A DNA stretch of 64,000 nt from Puniceicoccales bacterium Verruco_02 (GTDB lineage: Bacteria; Verrucomicrobiota; Verrucomicrobiia; Opitutales; Oceanipulchritudinaceae), in the NCBI GenBank assembly GCA_001604585.1, contig LVBW01000010.1, positions 1-64,000 on the forward strand. The letters are read 5' to 3'. Positions 8,555 through 29,734 of the stretch are shown piece by piece. The notes under the pieces are model-generated. The model had not been told where the DNA came from, did no database searches, and worked only from the letters and a program-made list of their open reading frames with translations. The position numbers and the translations under genes are program-made. The number at the start of each line of letters is the position of its first letter. Within the stretch, counting starts at the first letter, position 1.

Positions 8555-8751
8555 CAGGTAACACCTTTAGCACAAGTGCGGCACTTGGCAAGGCAGGGTT
8601 GGTTACGGATTTATTAAATCGCACCCGGATGTACAGGCTGCGCTTGCAAGAATGGGCAGGGCTGGAGAGTATAGTATGCAAGGGGGTCACGCGACAGGGG
8701 AGAAATTCCGCTGCGCCAGCCCGTTTCGTTCTCATCATCCCTGCGCATCCA

Positions 8752-11199
8752 GTGGAAAACCTCGAAGTCAGTCTTAAGCTGCCGGACATCTGGCAACGGG
8801 ACGCTATACGTGCCCTCCGGGAGGGCTGCGACGTGGTGGTGGACGCGCCGACGGGCGCGGGCAAGACCTACATTTTTGAAATGCTCGTGGAAGGGGGCTG
8901 GCGGGGCAGTGCCGTCTATACCGTGCCCACCCGCGCCCTTGCCAACGACAAGCTGCTGGAGTGGCGGGCAAAGGGCTGGAACGTGGGCATATCCACGGGC
9001 GATGTGGTCGAGAACCCCGATGCCCCGGTCGTTGTGGCCACACTTGAGGCGCGCAAGGGGCAGTTTTTGCGCGGGGAGGGGCCTTCGCTCCTTGTTGTGG
9101 ACGAATACCAGATGGTGGCCGACCAGACAAGAGGCGTTAACTACGAGCTGGTCATCTCTCTGGCCCCGCAGCAGACTCGCCTCCTGCTTCTATCGGGCAG
9201 CGTGGGCAATCCTGCACGTGCCGTGGAGTGGCTTGGCAGGCTGGGGCGCCGGGCAGTGCTTGTAAGCTGTCGCGAGCGGCCCGTGCCGCTTGAGGAGATT
9301 ATGGCCGAGGCATTGCCCGACCATCTGCCTACGAGCATAAAGGGCACCTGGCCGCGCATAATAGGCCGCGCACTCCAGCAGGGTATGGCTCCGCTATTAG
9401 CCTTTGCCCCGCAGCGCAGGGCGGCAGAGGCCCTAGCCATGCAGCTAGCCCGCGCTCTGCCAGAGGACGAGCCGCTGGAGTTGACGCCCGAGCAGAAGCG
9501 CCTAGCCGGGGACACTCTTTCGCGGCTACTTCGCGCGCGCATAGCCTACCACCATTCGGGCCTAGACTATCGGCAGAGGGCGGGCCTTATCGAGCCTCTG
9601 GCCAAGGCCGGGCAGCTGCGCGTTGTGGTGGCGACGATGGGCCTTTCCGCGGGTATAAACTTTTCGCTCCGCAGCGTGCTCGTTACGGACCGTGCCTATC
9701 GTCACGGGGCGCAGACTCACCTTCTACGCCCCGACGAGCTGTTGCAGATGATGGGCAGGGCGGGGCGGCGCGGCCTCGACAAACGCGGCTACGTCATCGT
9801 TGCTCCGGGAAAACCCCGCCTTTCCGAGGCGCGGCCCATAATGCTACGGCGCACCACGCAGGTGGATTGGCCGAGTCTTATCGCCGTGATGGCGCAGGCG
9901 GCAGACATGGGCGAAGACCCCCGCGCTGCCGCTCTGGAACTGGCTGGCCGCTTATTCAGCCAGCGCACCGTTCCGCTGGGTCTCGAAAGCTTGTCCCGCC
10001 ATGTGGAAGTGGCCCCTGTTGCCAGCGCCCCATCAGCCCGCAGCGGATGTCAGAGCGTGGAGGAGATTCTATCGAGCGCAGGGGAATGGGAAAGGGCAAG
10101 AGCGCCGCGCCGCGCCCGCCTTGGCGACTGTCTTGCGCGAGGGCCGGAGGGCTGGGCGGAGGCCCTGAGCCTGCCGGGTGTTCTCGGGCAGGCCGGGCCG
10201 GGCAGGCTCTGCCGCCTTGGCGAGGAGCCTCTTGTCTATGGGCGGGAATTGCCCGTTGCCCGCTACGGCAAGGGGGACGAGGGAGACCTGGTCCTGACAA
10301 AGAGCCTTCTGCGCTCCTTGCGAGAGCTTGGCGATGCCGATGCCTCTGGCCGGGGCCGCACGCACTGGACCATCGAGGCGTTGGAAAAGCACATTGTGCC
10401 GCACTTACGCGCTCTTGGCGGAGGCGGGGAGTTCGCTGGCTGGGCAGACAGGGGCGACACCTTTTACGCGCTGATGGATTATTCGAAGTTGGAGGTTCCC
10501 GCCAGCGTGGACAGCCTGGGCGCGGCCTTGCTGGACCCGCCAAGGCGCACCCGGCAGGTGTTTTACGACCTGGCAGCAGGGCTGGGCGAGGAGTCCGCAG
10601 CGGCGGGCGGGGGCAGCCCGGCAGCCACATGGCTGAGGCTGGGCCTCATCGACAGCTCTGCGCGTCCCACTATGCGCGGGCGGCTCTTCAGCCTGTTCAA
10701 TCACGGAGAGGGCCTAGCCATAGCGGCGGCGCTGGAGGATCGAAGCTATCCGGTCGAGCAGCTAGTGTACGACCTTGCAAACCTGCGGGCCGGGCACCGC
10801 TTCGATCCCTACGACAAGGGCGCGGACCGCCTTGGCAACAGTTGCCGTGCCGCGTACGGAGAGATCAACTGCGAGGGCTACCTGAAAAAGGGCCTGCCAG
10901 AGACCTATGGCGAGGGCGCGGCAGAGCTTCTCATGCTGCTGGAGCGCCAGCCGGGCCGCATCGGCGAGATGACGGGCGAGGAACTTTCGAGCGGCGACAT
11001 CGAGCGCGCCCGCCTCGAATGGCGCAGCCTGCTCAACCATTGCGCCTGCGCCCAGAACCTCGACTGGGACCGCTGGCTGGCCTTGAAAAGGCAGGCCTCA
11101 TGGATGCTGGAGGCAATACCGGCGCCGAGGCCCTTCGATTTCCCCCCGCTTACCCAGTCCCAGAAGGTGCGCCACAAGAGCTTCATGCGCTTCGAGTAG
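8752..11199 (+). CDS. Ski2-like DExH superfamily 2 helicase
   Basis: An ATP-dependent nucleic-acid helicase of about 815 residues. Motifs in order: Walker A DAPTGAGKTY, motif II as VVDEYQM, motif III as LSGSVGNP, then YHHSGLDYRQR, VVVATMGLSAGINF and the arginine-finger motif QMMGRAGRRGLDKRG. The order and wording match the Ski2/Hel308 group, unusual in bacteria. The last 400 residues have no domain I recognise and may contact nucleic acid or a partner. The start is uncertain: in-frame ATGs at 8599 and 8629 exist, but TATAGT at 8670-8675 looks like a -10 element and would make the GTG at 8752 the first usable start. Role in DNA repair or RNA turnover is open. Confidence 0.75.
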   Translation: MENLEVSLKLPDIWQRDAIRALREGCDVVVDAPTGAGKTYIFEMLVEGGWRGSAVYTVPTRALANDKLLEWRAKGWNVGISTGDVVENPDAPVVVATLEARKGQFLRGEGPSLLVVDEYQMVADQTRGVNYELVISLAPQQTRLLLLSGSVGNPARAVEWLGRLGRRAVLVSCRERPVPLEEIMAEALPDHLPTSIKGTWPRIIGRALQQGMAPLLAFAPQRRAAEALAMQLARALPEDEPLELTPEQKRLAGDTLSRLLRARIAYHHSGLDYRQRAGLIEPLAKAGQLRVVVATMGLSAGINFSLRSVLVTDRAYRHGAQTHLLRPDELLQMMGRAGRRGLDKRGYVIVAPGKPRLSEARPIMLRRTTQVDWPSLIAVMAQAADMGEDPRAAALELAGRLFSQRTVPLGLESLSRHVEVAPVASAPSARSGCQSVEEILSSAGEWERARAPRRARLGDCLARGPEGWAEALSLPGVLGQAGPGRLCRLGEEPLVYGRELPVARYGKGDEGDLVLTKSLLRSLRELGDADASGRGRTHWTIEALEKHIVPHLRALGGGGEFAGWADRGDTFYALMDYSKLEVPASVDSLGAALLDPPRRTRQVFYDLAAGLGEESAAAGGGSPAATWLRLGLIDSSARPTMRGRLFSLFNHGEGLAIAAALEDRSYPVEQLVYDLANLRAGHRFDPYDKGADRLGNSCRAAYGEINCEGYLKKGLPETYGEGAAELLMLLERQPGRIGEMTGEELSSGDIERARLEWRSLLNHCACAQNLDWDRWLALKRQASWMLEAIPAPRPFDFPPLTQSQKVRHKSFMRFE

Positions 11200-13912: not shown

Positions 13913-15442
13913 TCAGGCGGCGGGGCTTTCGCTATGAGACTGTTTCCACGCGTCTTCGAGCACATCGAAGAAGTTTGGAAAGGTCTTGCCGCAGCACTTA
14001 GGGTCGCGGATGGCGAGCCAGGGTTTGCCGTCGCCCAATAGGTCGCGGCAGCCGAGTATGGCAAAGCTCATGGCGAAGCGGTGGTCGTGATAGGTGTCGA
14101 TTTCGATGCAGCCCGATGCGTTGCCAAGGCCGTTCGCGGCGTCTTCGCGGGCTTTGCGGGCGAGGGCTTTCATGGCGGCAAGGTCGGGCGTAACTTCGAG
14201 TGCGCCTTCTTCTTCGACTACGTGTTGGCCGAGTTTTTTAAGTTCGCGGGCCATAGCGGCGACGCGGTCTGTTTCCTGTTTGCGTGTGTGCGCAATGCCG
14301 CTGATGCGGGTCTTGCCTTCGAGCAGGGGCGTAAGGGCCGCAAGCGTAAGGAAGGTATCGGAGAAGGCTTCAAAGTCCGCAGTCACGCAGCGAGGGGTGA
14401 CGTCGGCGGGAAGGGATGTGCGGATGTCTTTGGGGCCATGCGGCCTTACGGAATTATCTTCATTAGTAAGTGATAGGCCGACATTTTCCAGCACTTTGAA
14501 ATAAGCAATGTCTCCCTGAAGTCTTCCCCACATACAAAGTTGAAGATACTTCACATTACAGGAGCCACCAGAAATTGTAGCTATTGGCAGAGAAAGAAAA
14601 TAGCTGGCAGCAGTAGCATCAGGTTCTATGGCGCAGTTTACTAGATCACCTTTTCTCTGTGTGTCTTCTTCGATTCTATAAATACCCCCGACTGAATGTG
14701 AAACGTTAACACCCAAGTCTTCATGCAGCATCTTTGCCGTCATTTCTACGAACGGCTCCGATACGGTCTTTCCCAAGAGACGCACTTCAAAGGGGCGTCC
14801 AAGTCCCGCAGCCATAATGAGCAGCGCGCTCAGAATCTGGCTGCTTTCTCTGGCATCGACCTCGACGTAATCCTTCGTAATCGGGGCCGTCTTCAGCGTG
14901 AATGGGATGCAGCCGGGGGTTTTGTGGAACGTAAACTGTGCTCCAAGCGATTCCAGCGCATCTGTCAGCCCCTTCATAGGGCGGCGGTACATGGCCTCGT
15001 CGCCATCGACATAAAACTCGCCCTCGGGCTGAAGACAGAGAAGGGCGGTAAGGAAGCGGGCGGCGGTACCGGCGTTGCCTACGTGCAGCGTTACGCCCTT
15101 GTGATTTGGGAAAATCACGTCCCCATCCAGTGGTAGAACGCCAATCTCGTCGCTGGTATCACTAAGGCACTTGGCTTCAGAATACTCTTCACGGATAGTG
15201 AAGTTCAGCTCAGAATCCACGTCGATTCGTCCAAACTTCCGTCCTAAGGTCATCAGGCATTGTTGCATGATGTAGGTGTCGCGGCTCTTTAAAGCTCCCC
15301 CTAGCACTGTCATTGAGTTCTTCAGCGCCCCGATTGCCAGCGCCCTGTTTGTTATGCTCTTGGAGCCGGGGACGCGCACCCTTGCCTTTGCTGGCTTTGT
15401 AAAGGGACGGATTGGCAGGACTGGCGGAAGCTGTGCGGACAT
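13913..15442 (-). CDS. aroA: 3-phosphoshikimate 1-carboxyvinyltransferase (EPSP synthase), long form
   Basis: Sixth step of the shikimate pathway, joining phosphoenolpyruvate to shikimate-3-phosphate. Recognised by GSKSITNRALAIGAL near the N-terminus, LHVGNAGTAARFLTALLCL, YRRPMKGLTDAL, and DHRFAMSFAILG near the C-terminus. At 509 residues it is about 80 longer than the usual 427. Extra sequence sits before GNAGTA and between the late DRVAAMA and DHRFAM segments. The gene body has a low-G+C patch: 14461-14700 counts to about 42%, against about 67% for 14101-14160 in the same gene. Reading frame and core motifs stay intact across it. Co-directional with cmk. Confidence 0.92.
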   Translation of the reverse strand: MSAQLPPVLPIRPFTKPAKARVRVPGSKSITNRALAIGALKNSMTVLGGALKSRDTYIMQQCLMTLGRKFGRIDVDSELNFTIREEYSEAKCLSDTSDEIGVLPLDGDVIFPNHKGVTLHVGNAGTAARFLTALLCLQPEGEFYVDGDEAMYRRPMKGLTDALESLGAQFTFHKTPGCIPFTLKTAPITKDYVEVDARESSQILSALLIMAAGLGRPFEVRLLGKTVSEPFVEMTAKMLHEDLGVNVSHSVGGIYRIEEDTQRKGDLVNCAIEPDATAASYFLSLPIATISGGSCNVKYLQLCMWGRLQGDIAYFKVLENVGLSLTNEDNSVRPHGPKDIRTSLPADVTPRCVTADFEAFSDTFLTLAALTPLLEGKTRISGIAHTRKQETDRVAAMARELKKLGQHVVEEEGALEVTPDLAAMKALARKAREDAANGLGNASGCIEIDTYHDHRFAMSFAILGCRDLLGDGKPWLAIRDPKCCGKTFPNFFDVLEDAWKQSHSESPAA

Positions 15443-15670
15443 TTACGCCCATGAAAACGATTTCCAGCCCCCTAGGCAAGGACTGGAAAGGCAGAGTCTC
15501 CACCCAGCGGCTCAAGGTGCCCGGAACTATGCTCAAGCTTGAAGCACAGGCGGGAACGGCAACCCATTACCCGCGCCGAAGGCCGACAACTACGAAAAAA
15601 GCACCAATTACGCCTCCGCATCTTAACATATCGCGGCGCAAGCTTGACCTTGGCCCTGAATTAGGACTCG

Positions 15671-17446
15671 ATGAAAAAACTTTACCCATCGAAGCCAATG
15701 GCCGAGGAAACGCCCCGGAACGAAAAGTCCGCCCCCCAAGACGTGGATATTGATCTTAGCAGCTTGAACGATCTGGCCCTTGGGCCTAGATGGAGCAGCG
15801 GGCCTGTGCCCGCCAACCAGCCACGACAGGACTTCCGCGAAGAGCGGGAACGTCCTGAACGCGGCTCCCGCCCCGCAAGAGGAATGGGACAAGGTCCGGC
15901 TCCGCGTCGCGACCGCCGTCCGCCTCAGCGCCCACAGGGAGAAGGCCCCGCCGATGCAGCCCGTCCGGCCCCCAGCGGCCAGCCGCGAGGCGAGCGTCCG
16001 CAGCGCGCCGATGGCAGGCCGCCTCGCGAGGACGGAGCGCCCCGCCGCGAAGGCGGCCCCCGCAGGGACGACCGCGGTCCGCGCCGCGAGTTTTCGCGAA
16101 GCGCCCCTCCGCCACCCTTCAAGCCCGTGGTGCAGGCAGCCTTCTACCCCGAGGAGAACCCATTCAAGCTCCTTTCGACGGCGATCAAAAATTCCGCCCG
16201 CACTTACGAACTCTTTGAAATCGCCCGCCTCATCCTCGAAAAGCCCGACCGCTTTGTCGTAGTGATGCACCCCCTGCCGGAAGCCCAGCCGCAGACGCTG
16301 TTCATATCCGTGCCGGACAACGTGCCCTTCCTTAGCGAAGACGCGGCCATGAGCCACGTATTCACCGCACACGCGGACAAGTTCTTCGAAATCGAGGAAG
16401 TGGAAGTTGACCCCCCGAAGGGCAACTTCCAGATAGTGAACCGCTGCGGAATAACTGGCGAACTGCTCGCCCCGCCCAACTATCACCGCTACCAGCAGAT
16501 TCTTCAGGCGCACTATTCGGCCCGCATAGGCAACATGCCCTACGAGCGCTTCCTCTCCCGCGTCGAAGGCGTGCGCGAGAAGGAGTCTATCGACCAGTGG
16601 GTGGAAAAGATGCGCAAGCAGACCCGCTACAAGCTCAAGGAAGCCATCGAAGGCGCCCCTTCGGAGTACGAAAGCATGGAAAGCGCCCGCTTCCAGCTCG
16701 TTCTCCACGCAAAGGAAAAGCTTGTCCGCGCCGTGGCCAACACCCGCTTTGAAGGCAAGCTGATCGAGCAGATGCCCGCCGGAGCGGTGCGCCAGAGCTT
16801 GGAAACCATACTCGAGGCTCAGCGCCGCTTCCCGCTCGACACAGCCAACAACCTGCGCGGCCGCCTGCGCCGCCTAGGCTTTAGCGTCTATAAGAAAGGC
16901 TCAAAGGGCATCTCCTACGTCTGCGCCATACGCCGCGCCTTCCGCAAGCCCGGTGAAGTGTTTGGCGAAAGCGTGCAGCAGCTAATCGAGTTCATCGAGG
17001 CGCACCCCGGCTTCCCAGCGAGCGAACTGCCCAAGCAGTACCTCGGCACCGAGATACCAGCCGAAGGCGAAACGGCTATGCCAGCCGAAGATCAGGAACG
17101 CCTGCGCCTATTGCGCAACGACCTGCGCTGGCTCATAACGAGCGGCTACGTCACCGAGTACAGCAACGGCAAGCTCTTTGCTCCGCCCCCGATGGAAGGC
17201 AGCGCGCCCTCCGACGACGAGCCGGACACAAAGGACATCCCCGGCGTGACAATCCCCGCCCCGCAGGTGGAGGCCCCGGCAGAGCCGAGCGCAGCCGCAG
17301 AGCAGCCCGAGGCCATCGAAGAAGCTCCCGAGCTGGTAACGGAAGCCGCTCCGGAAGCAGTTGAAACTACCGAAACTGTCGAAGTTACTGAAGCTGCTGA
17401 AGCGGTGGAAAGCCCCGCCGAAGAAGCCGCTGATAAGAGCGAATAG
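15671..17446 (+). CDS. Large unassigned protein with Arg-rich N-terminus and acidic C-terminal tail
   Basis: I do not recognise a named family. Of 591 residues, about 60-150 are an Arg/Pro/Gly-rich low-complexity region resembling RGG-type RNA-binding tails. About 155-510 form a folded core beginning FKPVVQAAFYPEENPF, with several helices (YELFEIARLILEKPDRFVVVMHP) and a later segment that may be a winged helix (RLRLLRNDLRWLITSGYVTEYSNGKLF). The last 80 residues are Glu/Ala/Thr-rich and acidic. No signal peptide. A Shine-Dalgarno-like AGGA lies 4 nt before the ATG at 15671; an internal ATG at 15698 is an alternative. A perfect 14-bp terminator follows, so it is a single-gene unit. Nucleic-acid binding is inferred from composition only. 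Confidence 0.7.
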   Translation: MKKLYPSKPMAEETPRNEKSAPQDVDIDLSSLNDLALGPRWSSGPVPANQPRQDFREERERPERGSRPARGMGQGPAPRRDRRPPQRPQGEGPADAARPAPSGQPRGERPQRADGRPPREDGAPRREGGPRRDDRGPRREFSRSAPPPPFKPVVQAAFYPEENPFKLLSTAIKNSARTYELFEIARLILEKPDRFVVVMHPLPEAQPQTLFISVPDNVPFLSEDAAMSHVFTAHADKFFEIEEVEVDPPKGNFQIVNRCGITGELLAPPNYHRYQQILQAHYSARIGNMPYERFLSRVEGVREKESIDQWVEKMRKQTRYKLKEAIEGAPSEYESMESARFQLVLHAKEKLVRAVANTRFEGKLIEQMPAGAVRQSLETILEAQRRFPLDTANNLRGRLRRLGFSVYKKGSKGISYVCAIRRAFRKPGEVFGESVQQLIEFIEAHPGFPASELPKQYLGTEIPAEGETAMPAEDQERLRLLRNDLRWLITSGYVTEYSNGKLFAPPPMEGSAPSDDEPDTKDIPGVTIPAPQVEAPAEPSAAAEQPEAIEEAPELVTEAAPEAVETTETVEVTEAAEAVESPAEEAADKSE

Positions 17447-17474
17447 CTTCTGCAAAAATAGCAAGATCTTGAAC

Positions 17475-17507
17475 AAGGGCCGGACAACGCTAGTTGTCCG
17501 GCCCTTT
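17475..17507. terminator. Bidirectional terminator with perfect 14-bp stem
   Basis: AAGGGCCGGACAAC at 17475-17488 pairs perfectly with 17493-17506 across the loop GCTA, followed by TTT. It lies between the convergent 591-residue protein gene and the UDP-xylose synthase gene. Confidence 0.85.
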
Positions 17508-17544
17508 GCCGTGTAAGAAATGTATCGGAACCAGTCCCCTTGCC

Positions 17545-18477
<933 letters not shown>

Positions 18478-24442: not shown

Positions 24443-27400
24443 TCAGGCGTTCTTTGCGCCAGCCAGCTCTTCTTCGTAGCGGTTGGCCAATACGTCGTAC
24501 AGTGCCCAGCGTTCTTCCACGTCCTTTTGTGCCTGTGCCATGAGGGTCTCGGCGCGGGAGGGGTCGTTCTTGAGCAACATGCGGAAGCGGTTCTCGTTGT
24601 AGGCGAAGTCCTTCAGCGGGACGCTGCCGCGGGTGGAGTCGATGGTGAGCGGGTTGCGCCCAACGCTGCGCATTTCGGGGTTGAAGCGCAGTAGGGGCCA
24701 GTAGCCAGAGCGCACGGCCAGCTGCTGCTGGGTGAGGCCGTTGGTCATGTTGATGCCGTGGGCTATGCAGTGGGCGTAGCTTATGATGATGGAGGGGCCT
24801 TCGAAGGCCTCGGCCTCGCGGAAGGCGCGCAGGGCCTGCTGCGGGTTGGCACCGTATGATATGCGGGCCACGTATGCGTGTCCGTAGGCCATTGCGGCCA
24901 TTGCAAGGTCTTTCTTGCCTATGCTCTTGCCGCCAGCGGCGAATTTGGCAACGGCGCCTAGCGGGGTGGCCTTGCTGGCCTGCCCGCCGGTGTTGGAGTA
25001 AACTTCTGTGTCCATCACGAGGATGTTCACGTTGCGCCCGCTGGCAATGATGTGGTCTAGGCCGCCGTAGCCGATGTCGTAGGCCCAGCCGTCTCCACCG
25101 ACTATCCATACGCTGCGGCGCAGCAGGTTGTCGGCGAGGGACTGGAGGTTCTTGACGCGACTGCCGTCGAGCTTTTCTAGCTTTTCCTTGAGTAGGCCGA
25201 TGCGCTGGCGCTGGTGGAAGATCTGCATCTCCGTCTCCTGCTTTGCGTTCAGGATGGAGGATACCAATTCTTCGCCCAGCTGCGGGGCCAGTTCCTGCAA
25301 CAGCTCTTTGGCGAGCTCGTTGTGCTTGTCGAGGGTGAGGCGGTAGCCCATGCCGAACTCGGCATTATCCTCGAAGAGCGAGTTTGCCCAGGCCGGGCCG
25401 CGCCCTTCGGCGTTCTTTGCCCAAGGTGTGGTGGGCAGGTTGCCCCCGTAGATGGAGGAGCAGCCCGTGGCGTTGGCCACGAGGAGGCGCTCGCCAAAGA
25501 GCTGGCTAAGCAGCTTCAGGTAGGGCGTCTCGCCGCAGCCCTGACAGGCGCCGGAGAACTCGAAGAGGGGCTGGGTGTACTGGATGCCGCGCACGGTGGA
25601 GAAGTTCACCAGTTCGCGGGCGTTGTATGGAATCTTGTCAAAGAAGGCTCCGTTGACTTTTTCGCGGGCCTGTATCGGTCCCTTGTCCACCATGTTGATG
25701 GCGCGCTTCTTCTCCTTGCCTTCGCCCTTGATGACGGGGCAGGCCTCCACGCAGAGGCCGCAGCCGGTGCAGTCCTCTAGGGATATGTGCAGGGTGTAGC
25801 GTTGGTCGGGGAAGCCGCGTCCGCGCAGCTTGGCGCTCTTGAAGGACTCCGGCGCGCCTTCAAGTGCGCCGTCCGGGTAGAACTTGGCGCGTATGCAGGC
25901 GTGGGGGCATACGAAGGAGCAGTTGCCGCACTCGATGCACATGTCCGCTTCCCAGTTGGGCACGATCTGGGAAATGTCGCGCTTTTCGTAACGCGAGGTG
26001 GCTGTGGGGAAGGTTCCGTCCACGGGCATCATCGAGACGGGCAGGCTTTCGCCGCGGTCCTCGATGAGGGCCTGAGTAAAGCTGCGAACAAAGTCCGAGG
26101 CGTCCGCAGGCAGTTCTACTTTTATTTCTTCGCCCGCGCTGACTGTGGCGGGCACCGTCATCTCGAACATGTTGGCTATGGCCTGATCCACGGCGGCGTT
26201 GTTCTTTGCAACGACCGCTTCGCCTTTCTTTATGTAGCTCTTGTGGATGGACTTCTTGATGCTGTTTATCGCCACTTCGCTCGGGATTACCTTGGCGATG
26301 GCGAAGAAGCAGGTCTGCATGATGGTGTTGATGCGGGTGCCCATTCCGGCGGCTTTGGCCACTGAGTAGGCGTCCACAACGAACACGCGCAGTTGTTTGT
26401 CTATTATCTGCTTTTGCACCTTGGCTGGCAGGTGGTGCCAGGTGTCTTCGGGCGAGTGGATGGAGTTAATTAGGACGATGCCGCCCTTGGCCGCTGGGGC
26501 CAGCACGTCGAACTGGCGGAAGAACTGGAACTGGTGGACTCCGATGAAGTCCGCCTTCTGGATGAGGTAGGGGGCCTTTATCGGGTTCGGGCCAAAGCGC
26601 AGGTGGCTCGTTGTGCGGCCGCCGGACTTTTTCGAATCATAGACGAAGTAGCCTTGCGCGTACATCTCCGTCTCCTGCCCGATGATCGTTATCGTGTTGT
26701 GGTTCGCTCCCACGGTGCCGTCAGCGCCCAGTCCGTAGAATAGGCACTGGCGCACTTCTTCGTCGAGCGTTGTCCAGGAGGGGTCGTAGTCGATGCTGGA
26801 GCCGGTGACGTCGTCGTTGATGCCGATTGTAAAGTGGGTCTTCGGGCGGGCTTTTTTAAGCTCGTCGAATATGGCCTTGGCCATGGCGGGTGTGAAGTCC
26901 TTCGAGGACAGTCCGTAGCGGCCGCCCACAATGCGGGGCATCTGGCGCTCCAGTTCCGGGTCTTCTGCAATGCCTTCGACGTAGGCCGAGACGACGTCCT
27001 GATACAGGGGTTCGCCGGGCGCGCCCGGTTCCTTGGTGCGGTCTATGACGGCGAGGGACTTGACGCTCGTGGGTATTGCCTTGAGGAAGTGCTTGAAGGA
27101 GAAGGGGCGGAAGAGGTGGACGCGTAGAACGCCGACCTTTTCCCCGGCTTCGACGAGCTTTTCCACTGCGGCAGTGACCGTCTCGCCGCTCGAACCCATG
27201 CTCACCATCACGCGCTCTGCCTGTGGGTGACCGATGTAGTCGAATAGCTTGTACTGGCGACCGGTCAGCTTGGCGAAGCGTTCCATGTATTCCTCCACAA
27301 TGCCGGGCACGGCGTTGTAGTAGGGATTGCAGGCTTCGCGGGCCTGAAAGTAAACGTCCGGGTTCTGCGCTGTGCCGCGCATTGTCGGATGGTCCGGGCT

Positions 27401-28024
27401 GAGGGCGCGGGCGCGGTGTGCGAACACCTGCTCCTCGTCAATCATCGAGCGGATTACCTCGTCGTCGATGATGTTGACCTTGTTCAGCTCGTGAGAGGTG
27501 CGGAAGCCGTCGAAGAAGTGTATGAAAGGGATGCGGGCTTTGAGCGTGGCCGCGTGGGCGATGAGGGCCATGTCCTGGGCTTCCTGCACGCTGTCCGAGC
27601 AGAGCAGGGCTAGGCCGCAGCTGCGCACGGCCATCATGTCGGAGTGTTCGCCGAAGATGGACAGGGCCTGTGTGGCCACGGCGCGCGCGGCCACGTGGAA
27701 GACGGCGGGCGTGAGTTCGCCAGCTATCTTGAACAGGTTCGGGATCATCAAGAGCAGGCCCTGCGACGCTGTGAAGGTCGTCGTGAGCGCTCCCGTGGCT
27801 AGGGCACCGTGGACAGCACCGATGGCGCCGCCCTCGCTCTGCATTTCTGCAACGCTCGGGACTGTGCCCCAGATGTTTTTCCTGCCCTGGGCGGACCATT
27901 GGTCGGCCAGTTCGCCCATCGTGGAGGAGGGCGTAATGGGGTAGATGGCGCAGACTTCGCTTACCTTGTAGGCTACGTTGGCTGCCGCCTCATTGCCGTC
28001 GATAACCTTTTGGACGGATTTCAT
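24443..28024 (-). CDS. nifJ: Pyruvate:ferredoxin (flavodoxin) oxidoreductase
   Basis: Converts pyruvate and CoA to acetyl-CoA, CO2 and reduced ferredoxin. The 1193-residue single-chain enzyme is full length: N-terminal pyruvate domain (AAANVAYKVSEVCAIYPITPSS), CoA-binding and gamma domains, two [4Fe-4S] motifs (CIECGNCSFVCPHACI and CTGCGLCVEACPVIKG), a third cluster region around CQGCGETPYLKLLSQL, and the C-terminal TPP-binding domain (GDGWAYDIGYGGLDH and NTGGQASKATPLG). It lies 37 nt downstream of the Fe-S flavoprotein gene on the same strand. The enzyme is usually oxygen-labile, consistent with anaerobic growth. Confidence 0.97.
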   Translation of the reverse strand: MKSVQKVIDGNEAAANVAYKVSEVCAIYPITPSSTMGELADQWSAQGRKNIWGTVPSVAEMQSEGGAIGAVHGALATGALTTTFTASQGLLLMIPNLFKIAGELTPAVFHVAARAVATQALSIFGEHSDMMAVRSCGLALLCSDSVQEAQDMALIAHAATLKARIPFIHFFDGFRTSHELNKVNIIDDEVIRSMIDEEQVFAHRARALSPDHPTMRGTAQNPDVYFQAREACNPYYNAVPGIVEEYMERFAKLTGRQYKLFDYIGHPQAERVMVSMGSSGETVTAAVEKLVEAGEKVGVLRVHLFRPFSFKHFLKAIPTSVKSLAVIDRTKEPGAPGEPLYQDVVSAYVEGIAEDPELERQMPRIVGGRYGLSSKDFTPAMAKAIFDELKKARPKTHFTIGINDDVTGSSIDYDPSWTTLDEEVRQCLFYGLGADGTVGANHNTITIIGQETEMYAQGYFVYDSKKSGGRTTSHLRFGPNPIKAPYLIQKADFIGVHQFQFFRQFDVLAPAAKGGIVLINSIHSPEDTWHHLPAKVQKQIIDKQLRVFVVDAYSVAKAAGMGTRINTIMQTCFFAIAKVIPSEVAINSIKKSIHKSYIKKGEAVVAKNNAAVDQAIANMFEMTVPATVSAGEEIKVELPADASDFVRSFTQALIEDRGESLPVSMMPVDGTFPTATSRYEKRDISQIVPNWEADMCIECGNCSFVCPHACIRAKFYPDGALEGAPESFKSAKLRGRGFPDQRYTLHISLEDCTGCGLCVEACPVIKGEGKEKKRAINMVDKGPIQAREKVNGAFFDKIPYNARELVNFSTVRGIQYTQPLFEFSGACQGCGETPYLKLLSQLFGERLLVANATGCSSIYGGNLPTTPWAKNAEGRGPAWANSLFEDNAEFGMGYRLTLDKHNELAKELLQELAPQLGEELVSSILNAKQETEMQIFHQRQRIGLLKEKLEKLDGSRVKNLQSLADNLLRRSVWIVGGDGWAYDIGYGGLDHIIASGRNVNILVMDTEVYSNTGGQASKATPLGAVAKFAAGGKSIGKKDLAMAAMAYGHAYVARISYGANPQQALRAFREAEAFEGPSIIISYAHCIAHGINMTNGLTQQQLAVRSGYWPLLRFNPEMRSVGRNPLTIDSTRGSVPLKDFAYNENRFRMLLKNDPSRAETLMAQAQKDVEERWALYDVLANRYEEELAGAKNA

Positions 28025-28061
28025 CGAAAAATGTCTCTTTCTTTGCGTTCGTTGATGCCCC

Positions 28062-29714
28062 TTAGCGGGCGGACTGGCTGAGGGAGCATTCCTCTATCAG
28101 CTCTATTGCGCCGCAGGGGCACTGTTCGTAGCAGGCTCCGCAGCCCACGCACTTTTCGTAGTCGAACTTGTAGCGTTTGCCGGGGCCGAGTTTTATCACG
28201 GCGTCTTCTGGGCAGGCGCCAAGGCAGCCGTCGCACTCGTAGCAGTTGCCGCAGCTTAGGCAGCGTTTTGCCTCGTGGAGAGCTTCTTCGGTGCTTAGGC
28301 CCTTGACCACTTCGCGGAAGTCGCTTTTGCGTTCATCGCCCTTTAGCTGGGTTTCCTTGCTTGGGTCTGCCTGGGTGTAGTACCAGCTGTGCAGCTTGTC
28401 GAAGTTTGCGGCCTTGTTCTTGGCTGCGGGTTCGTAGCGGCGGCCTGAGAGCCATGCGTCGATGCAGCGGGCGGCCTTCTTGCCGTGGCCGACGGCCACT
28501 GTCACGGCGCGCTCGTAGGGCACCATGTCGCCACCTGCGAAGATGCCTTCGCTGCCGGTCATCATCTGGTCGTTGACGGCGACGGTGTCTTTTTTGAACT
28601 CGATGCCGGGTATCTGCTGGAGAAGCTGAGATTCGCTGTCCTGACCAAGGGCCATCACGAGGCTGTCCGCCTCCAGCGTCTCATACTCGCCCGTGGGCTG
28701 GGGCCAGCCCTTTTCGTCGAGCTTCATCTTCTCGACCTTCACGCTCTTGCCTTCGACAGAGCTGATGGTGGATAGCCAGTGGAACTTGATGCCCTCGTCG
28801 ATGGCGTCCTGTATCTCGCTGTCGTGGGCAGGGGCCTTTTCGCGGTTGCGGCGGTAAATGATGATGGTCTCCTGCGCGCCGAGGCGCAGTGCCGTGCGTG
28901 CGGCGTCCATTGCGGTGTTGCCGCCGCCGTAGATGGCCACTTTGCGGCCTATCATGGGCTTTTCGCCAAGCTCCACATCGCGCAGGAGCTTGACCGCGTC
29001 CAGTATCGGGCCTGCGTCCATCGCGGGGATGTCCGTGCGGCGGCCTATGTGTGCGCCAACGGCCACGAAGGCTGCGTCAAAGCCGCCCTCTGCCTTTTCT
29101 CTGGCCAGATCGCTCACCTTGTGGTTCAAGACGATCTTTACGCCCATCTTCTCGATGCGGGCGATTTCGGCGTCCAGAATGTTGCGCGGCAGTCGGTACT
29201 GGGGGATGCCAAAGTGCAGCATTCCGCCCGCCATCGGGCCTGCTTCGCGTATCTCCACTTCGTGGCCAAGGCGACGCAGGTGATATGCGGCGGAGAGGCC
29301 CGCGGGGCCGGCACCCACTATCAGGATGCGCTTCCCGCTCGCGGGGGCGTCCACATTGGGCATCCAGCCTTTTTCGAGGGCGGTGTCGCCGATGAGCCTT
29401 TCCACTGCGTGGATGCTGATGGGCGTATCCATGTGCTTGCGGTTGCATGCGTCTTCACAGGTGTGATAGCAGACGCGCCCATGCACCGCAGGCATGGGAT
29501 TGTCACGCATGATGACCTGCCAAGCGGCTTCAAGATTACCAGCCTGCGCGTGTGCCAGCCATGCCTGTATGTTCTCGCCTGCGGGGCAGGTCGAGTTACA
29601 AGGCGGCAACTGGTCCACGTAGCGGGGTAACCACGTTCTGTCGGGGCCGGTCCTGCGTGCCTTGCGCAAGTCCGGTTGCCCGGTCAATTCCCTGTCGGAA
29701 AGGGTCTTTGTCAT
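28062..29714 (-). CDS. FAD/NAD(P)-dependent oxidoreductase with C-terminal ferredoxin domain
   Basis: A 550-residue flavoprotein of the GltD/NfnB type. An N-terminal Fe-S-binding segment (PCNSTCPAGENIQAW, CYHTCEDACNR) is followed by an FAD Rossmann motif (VGAGPAGLSAAYHLRRLG), an NAD(P) motif (AIYGGGNTAMDAAR), GIFAGGDMVP and a C-terminal two-cluster ferredoxin domain (CLSCGNCYECDGCLGACP and CVGCGACYEQCPCGAIE). Next to nifJ it most likely moves electrons between ferredoxin and NAD(P)H. Glutamate synthase use is less likely as no large subunit gene is near. An ATG at 29714 follows a GTG at 29717. The promoter overlaps an inverted repeat at 29756-29772. Confidence 0.82.
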   Translation of the reverse strand: MTKTLSDRELTGQPDLRKARRTGPDRTWLPRYVDQLPPCNSTCPAGENIQAWLAHAQAGNLEAAWQVIMRDNPMPAVHGRVCYHTCEDACNRKHMDTPISIHAVERLIGDTALEKGWMPNVDAPASGKRILIVGAGPAGLSAAYHLRRLGHEVEIREAGPMAGGMLHFGIPQYRLPRNILDAEIARIEKMGVKIVLNHKVSDLAREKAEGGFDAAFVAVGAHIGRRTDIPAMDAGPILDAVKLLRDVELGEKPMIGRKVAIYGGGNTAMDAARTALRLGAQETIIIYRRNREKAPAHDSEIQDAIDEGIKFHWLSTISSVEGKSVKVEKMKLDEKGWPQPTGEYETLEADSLVMALGQDSESQLLQQIPGIEFKKDTVAVNDQMMTGSEGIFAGGDMVPYERAVTVAVGHGKKAARCIDAWLSGRRYEPAAKNKAANFDKLHSWYYTQADPSKETQLKGDERKSDFREVVKGLSTEEALHEAKRCLSCGNCYECDGCLGACPEDAVIKLGPGKRYKFDYEKCVGCGACYEQCPCGAIELIEECSLSQSAR

Positions 29715-29734
29715 CACAATTCTTCGTCTGCATT

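Follow-up and report, generated by a model that had tools for sequence, protein, structure and literature searches.

The open reading frame at positions 15671-17446 (+, 591 aa) of the window, the whole stretch of 64,000 nucleotides from Puniceicoccales bacterium Verruco_02 that was analyzed, raises the question of what a protein with no named family may do in its cell. A first-pass annotation had described a lineage-type protein with a basic N-terminus, a folded core and an acidic tail, and had proposed that it is abundant and associated with nucleic acid. That picture is right in outline, and to it are added two features that it had missed and that are new, namely a likeness of the core to zinc fingers and a conserved W motif near the N-terminus.

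The Gene and Its Surroundings

The open reading frame is real, as had been supposed, since the other 27 rows of alignment A2 share 45-83% core identity with the window protein, a conservation beyond chance. An alternative start at 15698 would give 582 aa. The relative L002, whose core is 83% identical, has no ATG upstream of the one matching window position 15698, which argues against 15671, whereas in L003 an ATG is present at the place of 15671, plus others before it, which argues for a start at or before 15671; both positions are thus possible. Upstream lies a divergent EPSP synthase gene (13913-15442, -) and downstream a convergent gene of the NAD-dependent epimerase type (17545-18477, -), such that the gene is monocistronic by position. 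A hairpin of 14 perfect pairs (17475-17506, no strand) lies between the two convergent genes, with a fold z of -4.3 that was equalled by 0 of 200 shuffles. Of the strong single-gene terminator that had been proposed, the hairpin is real, but it is U-poor, with almost no U-run, it was not among the results of a consensus terminator scan, and by its place between convergent genes it may serve both of them. An Rfam scan of 15300-17700 gave 0 matches and hence no RNA element.

Codon usage near that of ribosomal genes fits the proposed abundance of the protein. Scored against 18 ribosomal genes that were picked by eye, only L2 by profile, the whole gene reaches 0.644, rank 5 among 39 window ORFs likewise chosen by eye, and its core taken separately reaches 0.742, a score not like for like with those of whole genes, while the reference ribosomal genes, scoring themselves, lie at 0.61-0.78. 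The best window ORF by this measure is a pyruvate:ferredoxin oxidoreductase (0.717), which lies beside an FAD/Fe-S oxidoreductase (24443-29717, -); the two hold the top two codon-adaptation scores of the 39 ORFs, and they would agree with anaerobic energy metabolism. A DEAD/Suv3-like helicase ORF of 866 aa with a TTG start was also seen (8599-11199, +). Pfam was used to check nine ORFs of the window.

No pathway emerges from the genome context, as no neighbor group exceeds 6 of 31 loci (the window included, with about 5-6 kb on each side). The groups of that size all belong to the order, and a group in 5 of the 31 loci is of the ABC-ATPase type and likely generic. Among loci of the order, tsaE-, thiL-, pyrC-, and pyrB-like neighbors recur, as named by reading their sequences rather than by profile, the tsaE-like one in 40 of 81 loci.

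A Protein of Most Sampled Verrucomicrobiota

With the window core as query, a match was found in 49 of the 55 genomes of the order, its own included, where the match is single and the gene thus present in one copy. Within the class, a 28-row core profile detected the protein in 239 of 286 genomes. Across the phylum Verrucomicrobiota, the same profile detected it in 177 of 288 sampled genomes and a broader 34-row core profile in 269 of 383. An unnamed protein is thus present in most sampled Verrucomicrobiota, and its description as lineage-type is borne out. In a collection of 84,980 species genomes, two patterns from order-level sequences retrieved 378 stretches encoding a relative; the 80 that were kept have titles naming Opitutales or other Verrucomicrobia, except L048 (“bacterium”), and the genera in these titles are presumably members of Verrucomicrobia. 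Within the order, G050 and G037 lack the gene although both genomes are nearly complete, and families f35, f40, and f80 gave no match in any genome among those listed, with 94 further matchless genomes beyond the list, such that the protein is not indispensable everywhere. A transposon study of V. spinosum counts 618 essential genes, 100 of them for proteins of unknown function (PMC12283558). A mobile origin was rejected, as tblastn with the window core matched none of 72,556 plasmid records and none of 50,697 phage records. In genome G406 the family gene lies in two pieces (L179 and L232) with a TGA inside, which may reflect breakage or a frameshift of this copy, or else a fault in the assembly.

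The absence of a named family for the core was upheld: Pfam and NCBIfam gave no match to the window protein up to E 10, and on this ground a known enzyme core was rejected. Several marginal rows were judged to be chance, namely those of 22 Pfam families scattered over members of A2 (each in 1-2 of 28, best E 0.0033), those of seven NCBIfam families in members of A4 (each in 1-2 of 36, best E 0.0016), and truncated-haemoglobin rows at E 0.11-0.15. Of the further alignments, A1 took 28 of 30 loci (all but L007 and L021), A4 joined 8 rows of the order to 28 of the 30 loci L151-L180, A5 kept 34 of A4's 36 rows, and A6 kept 57 of the 81 in A3. A search of titles and the beginnings of abstracts, limited to the wording used, returned no literature on the family. 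The PVC signature protein CT421.2 (PMC3444138) is likewise lineage-restricted, conserved and of unassigned function; however, at about 53 to >80 aa it differs from a protein of 591 aa, a distinction made by description rather than by sequence.

Predicted Fold of the Core

That the core is folded, as had been proposed, is supported by structure prediction (mean pLDDT 95.7, pTM 0.83). Its C-terminal end forms a predicted winged helix, here winged helix 2 (residues 426-510, 16946-17200, +), as had been suspected and as structural alignments, beside a weak profile match to AspA, bear out: three helices and a two-stranded wing are found in its predicted secondary structure, and it aligns at Z 8.1 (2.3 A over 64 residues) with an RNase R chain from a 30S complex. 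The likeness to RNase R (8cdv), and to BlaI/MecI at 7.4 for BlaI, extends to this one domain only, with no nuclease part. Because the DNA-binding BlaI, MecI, and MarR fall within one Z unit of the top row, they are tied with RNase R. This tie, together with the best profile match, in which the order profile weakly retrieved the winged helix of the plasmid protein AspA among solved structures (E 0.025-0.035), and the classical C2H2 spacing in relatives considered below, speaks for a DNA-binding nucleoid or transcription protein whose winged helices and fingers would grip DNA and whose W motif would bring in RNA polymerase or some other factor bound to DNA. However, the best-scoring row for winged helix 2 belongs to an RNA enzyme, RNA and DNA are not told apart by any structural or sequence row, and a protein dedicated to DNA is rather unlikely in our estimate.

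Searches with the whole core bring in a different reading. None of its Foldseek matches reaches E 0.001 (best 0.033), and the list is headed by Nse1, MukE, and ESCRT-II (E 0.033-0.99), as might be the case if the protein were a protein-protein scaffold like the tandem winged-helix SMC subunits (MukE, Nse1/3, ScpB), its winged helices and finger units binding protein and not nucleic acid. Degenerate fingers can become protein-binding modules, and winged helices serving purely in protein-protein contacts do occur among the structural rows (ESCRT-II, cullins, MukE), which counts against a nucleic-acid reading. However, these Foldseek scores are not significant, with TM-scores of 0.13-0.25 and rmsd >10 A, so that at most single winged helices match SMC subunits, and the R-rich arm, with a basic stretch conserved in the order, also speaks against a scaffold, which we hold to be improbable.

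Residues 146-429 were also predicted alone (pLDDT 92.4), with a best Foldseek E of 2.1. Structural alignment of this part gave winged-helix rows that span the model from about 8 to 278 with only 53-83 aligned residues, at Z 2.5-4.0, where the tool warns that a Z under 8 may reflect merely a common arrangement. As these rows take in both ends of the part, a winged helix with an insert is suggested, and the fingers may, tentatively, lie inside a discontinuous first winged helix. Its possible N-terminal piece would be residues 154-180 (16130-16210, +) and its possible C-terminal piece residues 362-421 (16754-16933, +), the latter basic and highly conserved in the order with the pattern FPLDTANxLRGRLRR...KKGSKG.SYVC.VKR; the basic character of this stretch, pronounced in the order, is less so outside it. 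Twenty-two of the 50 structural rows for residues 146-429 are ribosome entries that span this supposed winged helix 1 and look like one ribosomal protein repeated, which we take to be eS25. The other main kind of row is that of C2H2 fingers, which align within model positions 62-212 (AFV1p06 at Z 3.5, Kaiso at Z 3.0); most rows are of one of these two kinds. Structural scores for residues 146-429 alone would prove nothing.

Finger Units and Zinc Ligands

Three units of the core resemble fingers. Finger 1 (residues 210-235, 16298-16375, +) and finger 3 (residues 316-350, 16616-16720, +) are beta-beta-alpha units predicted as two strands and a helix, and finger 2 (residues 256-286, 16436-16528, +), with a PPN.H insert, as one clear strand and a helix; the beta-beta-alpha fold of a C2H2 finger is thus found, by prediction only. 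The ligand places of finger 1 hold S213, D216, H229, and H234, such that both His are in place and no Cys is present. In finger 2, C259 and H272 are strongly conserved and the second Cys place is T262. Finger 3 has no Cys.

The likeness is independently supported by relatives, for which 193 unique full-length cores, the window included, were kept from 221 matching entries, loci L111-L150 being left out. These cores are the best-scoring loci of several searches and hand-picked genomes, with several species per family, and as they are unevenly sampled the group counts given here are not frequencies; ligand columns come from one MAFFT alignment, and the kinship groups used for ligand, tree, tail, and W-motif counts were assigned by hand from tables. 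The classical CxxC-x12-HxxxxH occurs at finger 1 in 56 of the 193 cores and in 4 of 38600 shuffled cores. By group, it is found in 48 of the 58 fetched cores outside the class, in 2 of 27 of the class without family f31, in all six of f31, and in none of the 102 of the order, the window protein included, which lack the classical ligand spacing. The His places of finger 1 are more widely kept (H229 in 166 of 193, H234 in 136 of 193). In finger 2, His is found at H272 in 193 of 193 cores and Cys at C259 in 183 of 193, and so near-invariant a pair suggests that this patch has kept a role. In f31, all six members have ligands at all three finger places, with CxxC-x12-HxxxxH at fingers 1 and 3 and, at finger 2, CxxC and HxxxxH with a longer spacer (6/6), and these places coincide with the units of the window protein that are predicted to be finger-like. 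The members of f31 (L176, L221, L222, L224, L225, and L227) are a compact version of the protein; L172, L174, L177, L178, and L180 have long low-complexity insertions within the finger 3 unit.

Profile evidence for the fingers is slight. A phylum profile weakly retrieved C2H2 fingers among solved structures at the finger 1 region (E 0.04-0.1), where a chance-looking, low-complexity VP6 row scores as well (E 0.049) and where, in the two best C2H2 rows, no single finger stretch passes alone. Pfam applied to 10 relatives gave C2H2-named models in 5, none over its cut-off; L176, for example, scores 13.2 bits with zf-C2H2 (cut-off 25.2), its best row being DUF629 (21, cut-off 23.1).

On the ligand pattern of its relatives, the simplest reading of the window protein is a zinc-finger protein that would have lost its zinc, a direction that stays tentative because the root of the tree is arbitrary. 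That tree, drawn from 66 of the 193 cores, unites the 11 order rows in one group (98/100) and places f31 on a very long branch (3.0 changes per column), its root serving for drawing only. The likeness could conversely be secondary, the units having some other alpha/beta fold on which zinc sites were gained later in some lineages: the window protein has no intact site, f31 is the sole group seen with three sites and sits on that long branch of a tree with no real root, and the structural finger scores are low (Z 3.0-3.5). However, the count of the pattern outside the class relative to shuffled cores, and its classical spacing at two of the three places in f31, make such a late gain very unlikely. 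Compared with the classical C2H2 finger of Kaiso or of the archaeal-virus protein AFV1p06, the likeness lies in the predicted beta-beta-alpha units and in the pattern of 56 cores, and the difference in that the window protein has no Cys and that the units are part of a larger core rather than a free tandem. Ros/MucR is likewise a bacterial C2H2-type protein, Ros having C-X2-C-X3-F-X2-L-X2-H-X3-H-H with a spacer of 9 residues and, within its 142 aa, a globular domain of 58 residues (PMC9779718); the present family differs in the 12-residue spacer at fingers 1 and 3 of relatives, in having three units and a winged helix, and in its 591 aa, so that neither the spacer nor the length of about 142 aa that marks Ros/MucR is found, nor any Pfam match for the window protein. 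A bacterial precedent is the Ros homologue Ml5, which according to the same source binds DNA even though its finger lacks zinc (PMC9779718).

The N-terminal Arm, the W Motif and the Acidic Tail

The tripartite charge layout holds in the window protein (residues 1-147 net +9, 148-508 net +1, 509-591 net -23), but its acidic part is not a family trait. The tail (residues 511-591, 17201-17443, +) is typical of the order and rare outside it: among complete tails, 81 of 100 in the order have a net charge of -10 or below, compared with 5 of 27 in the remaining class without f31, 0 of 5 in f31, and 8 of 58 outside the class. The C-termini of L009 and L169 are basic (+14 and +27), most relatives being acidic or near neutral, and a frameshift near the end is possible there. 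At the other end, residues 1-147 contain 28 R, 4 K, and 4 RG, and with 0 RGG the earlier description of the N-terminus as RGG-like is a loose one, whereas its R-rich character holds; this low-complexity region (residues 44-147, 15800-16111, +) is presumed to be disordered.

Ahead of it lies a linear motif (residues 28-41, DLSSLNDLALGPRW, 15752-15793, +) in which L29, L32, and W41 are invariant in 28 sequences. Of the 185 N-parts that reach 40 aa, 182 contain the pattern [LFMIV]x[PT]xW (99 of 100 in the order, 83 of 85 elsewhere), compared with 190 of 9250 shuffled N-parts; the three N-parts lacking it are 40-52 aa long, and in f31 the N-part is shorter than 40 aa in 5 of 6 members. A stricter pattern that admits only P fits just 47 of 100 in the order, as T is frequent at that place there. 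As a conserved aromatic motif inside a low-complexity region, it resembles a docking site, and it is probably one for a protein partner.

A Model for the Protein

Considered jointly, the predicted shape and the relatives suggest a kinship with DNA- and RNA-binding zinc fingers and winged helices, and the protein thus probably binds RNA or DNA. Fingers and winged helices, of which the core seems to be composed, bind nucleic acid in many but not all cases. We accordingly propose, at a probability of roughly 0.55, that the gene encodes a single-copy housekeeping protein that would bind RNA or DNA and tether a partner to it. In this model, two winged helices, the first with three inserted C2H2-like finger units, would form one rigid core, which could grip RNA or DNA, with RNA slightly favored. 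R-rich tails are common in RNA-binding proteins, and the 22 ribosome rows and the R-rich arm give rise to this weak lean. The R-rich N-part might contribute non-specific affinity, and [LFMIV]x[PT]xW might dock a conserved protein partner, which would thereby be tethered to the nucleic acid. The fingers of the order, having no zinc ligands, may hold their fold by packing into the core. A bolder version, which we hold to be less likely than not, envisions a phylum-wide, RNA-gripping core factor with three eukaryote-spaced C2H2 fingers inserted in a winged helix, whose near-universal W motif may recruit a central machine (RNA polymerase, ribosome or degradosome), and in which several lineages may have lost zinc and kept fold and role.

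The more interesting part is held by the relatives, with their three finger units bearing or lacking ligands, their R-rich arm, and their W motif. One bacterial protein family here offers a natural series that leads from zinc-ligand-bearing fingers to fingers free of ligands.
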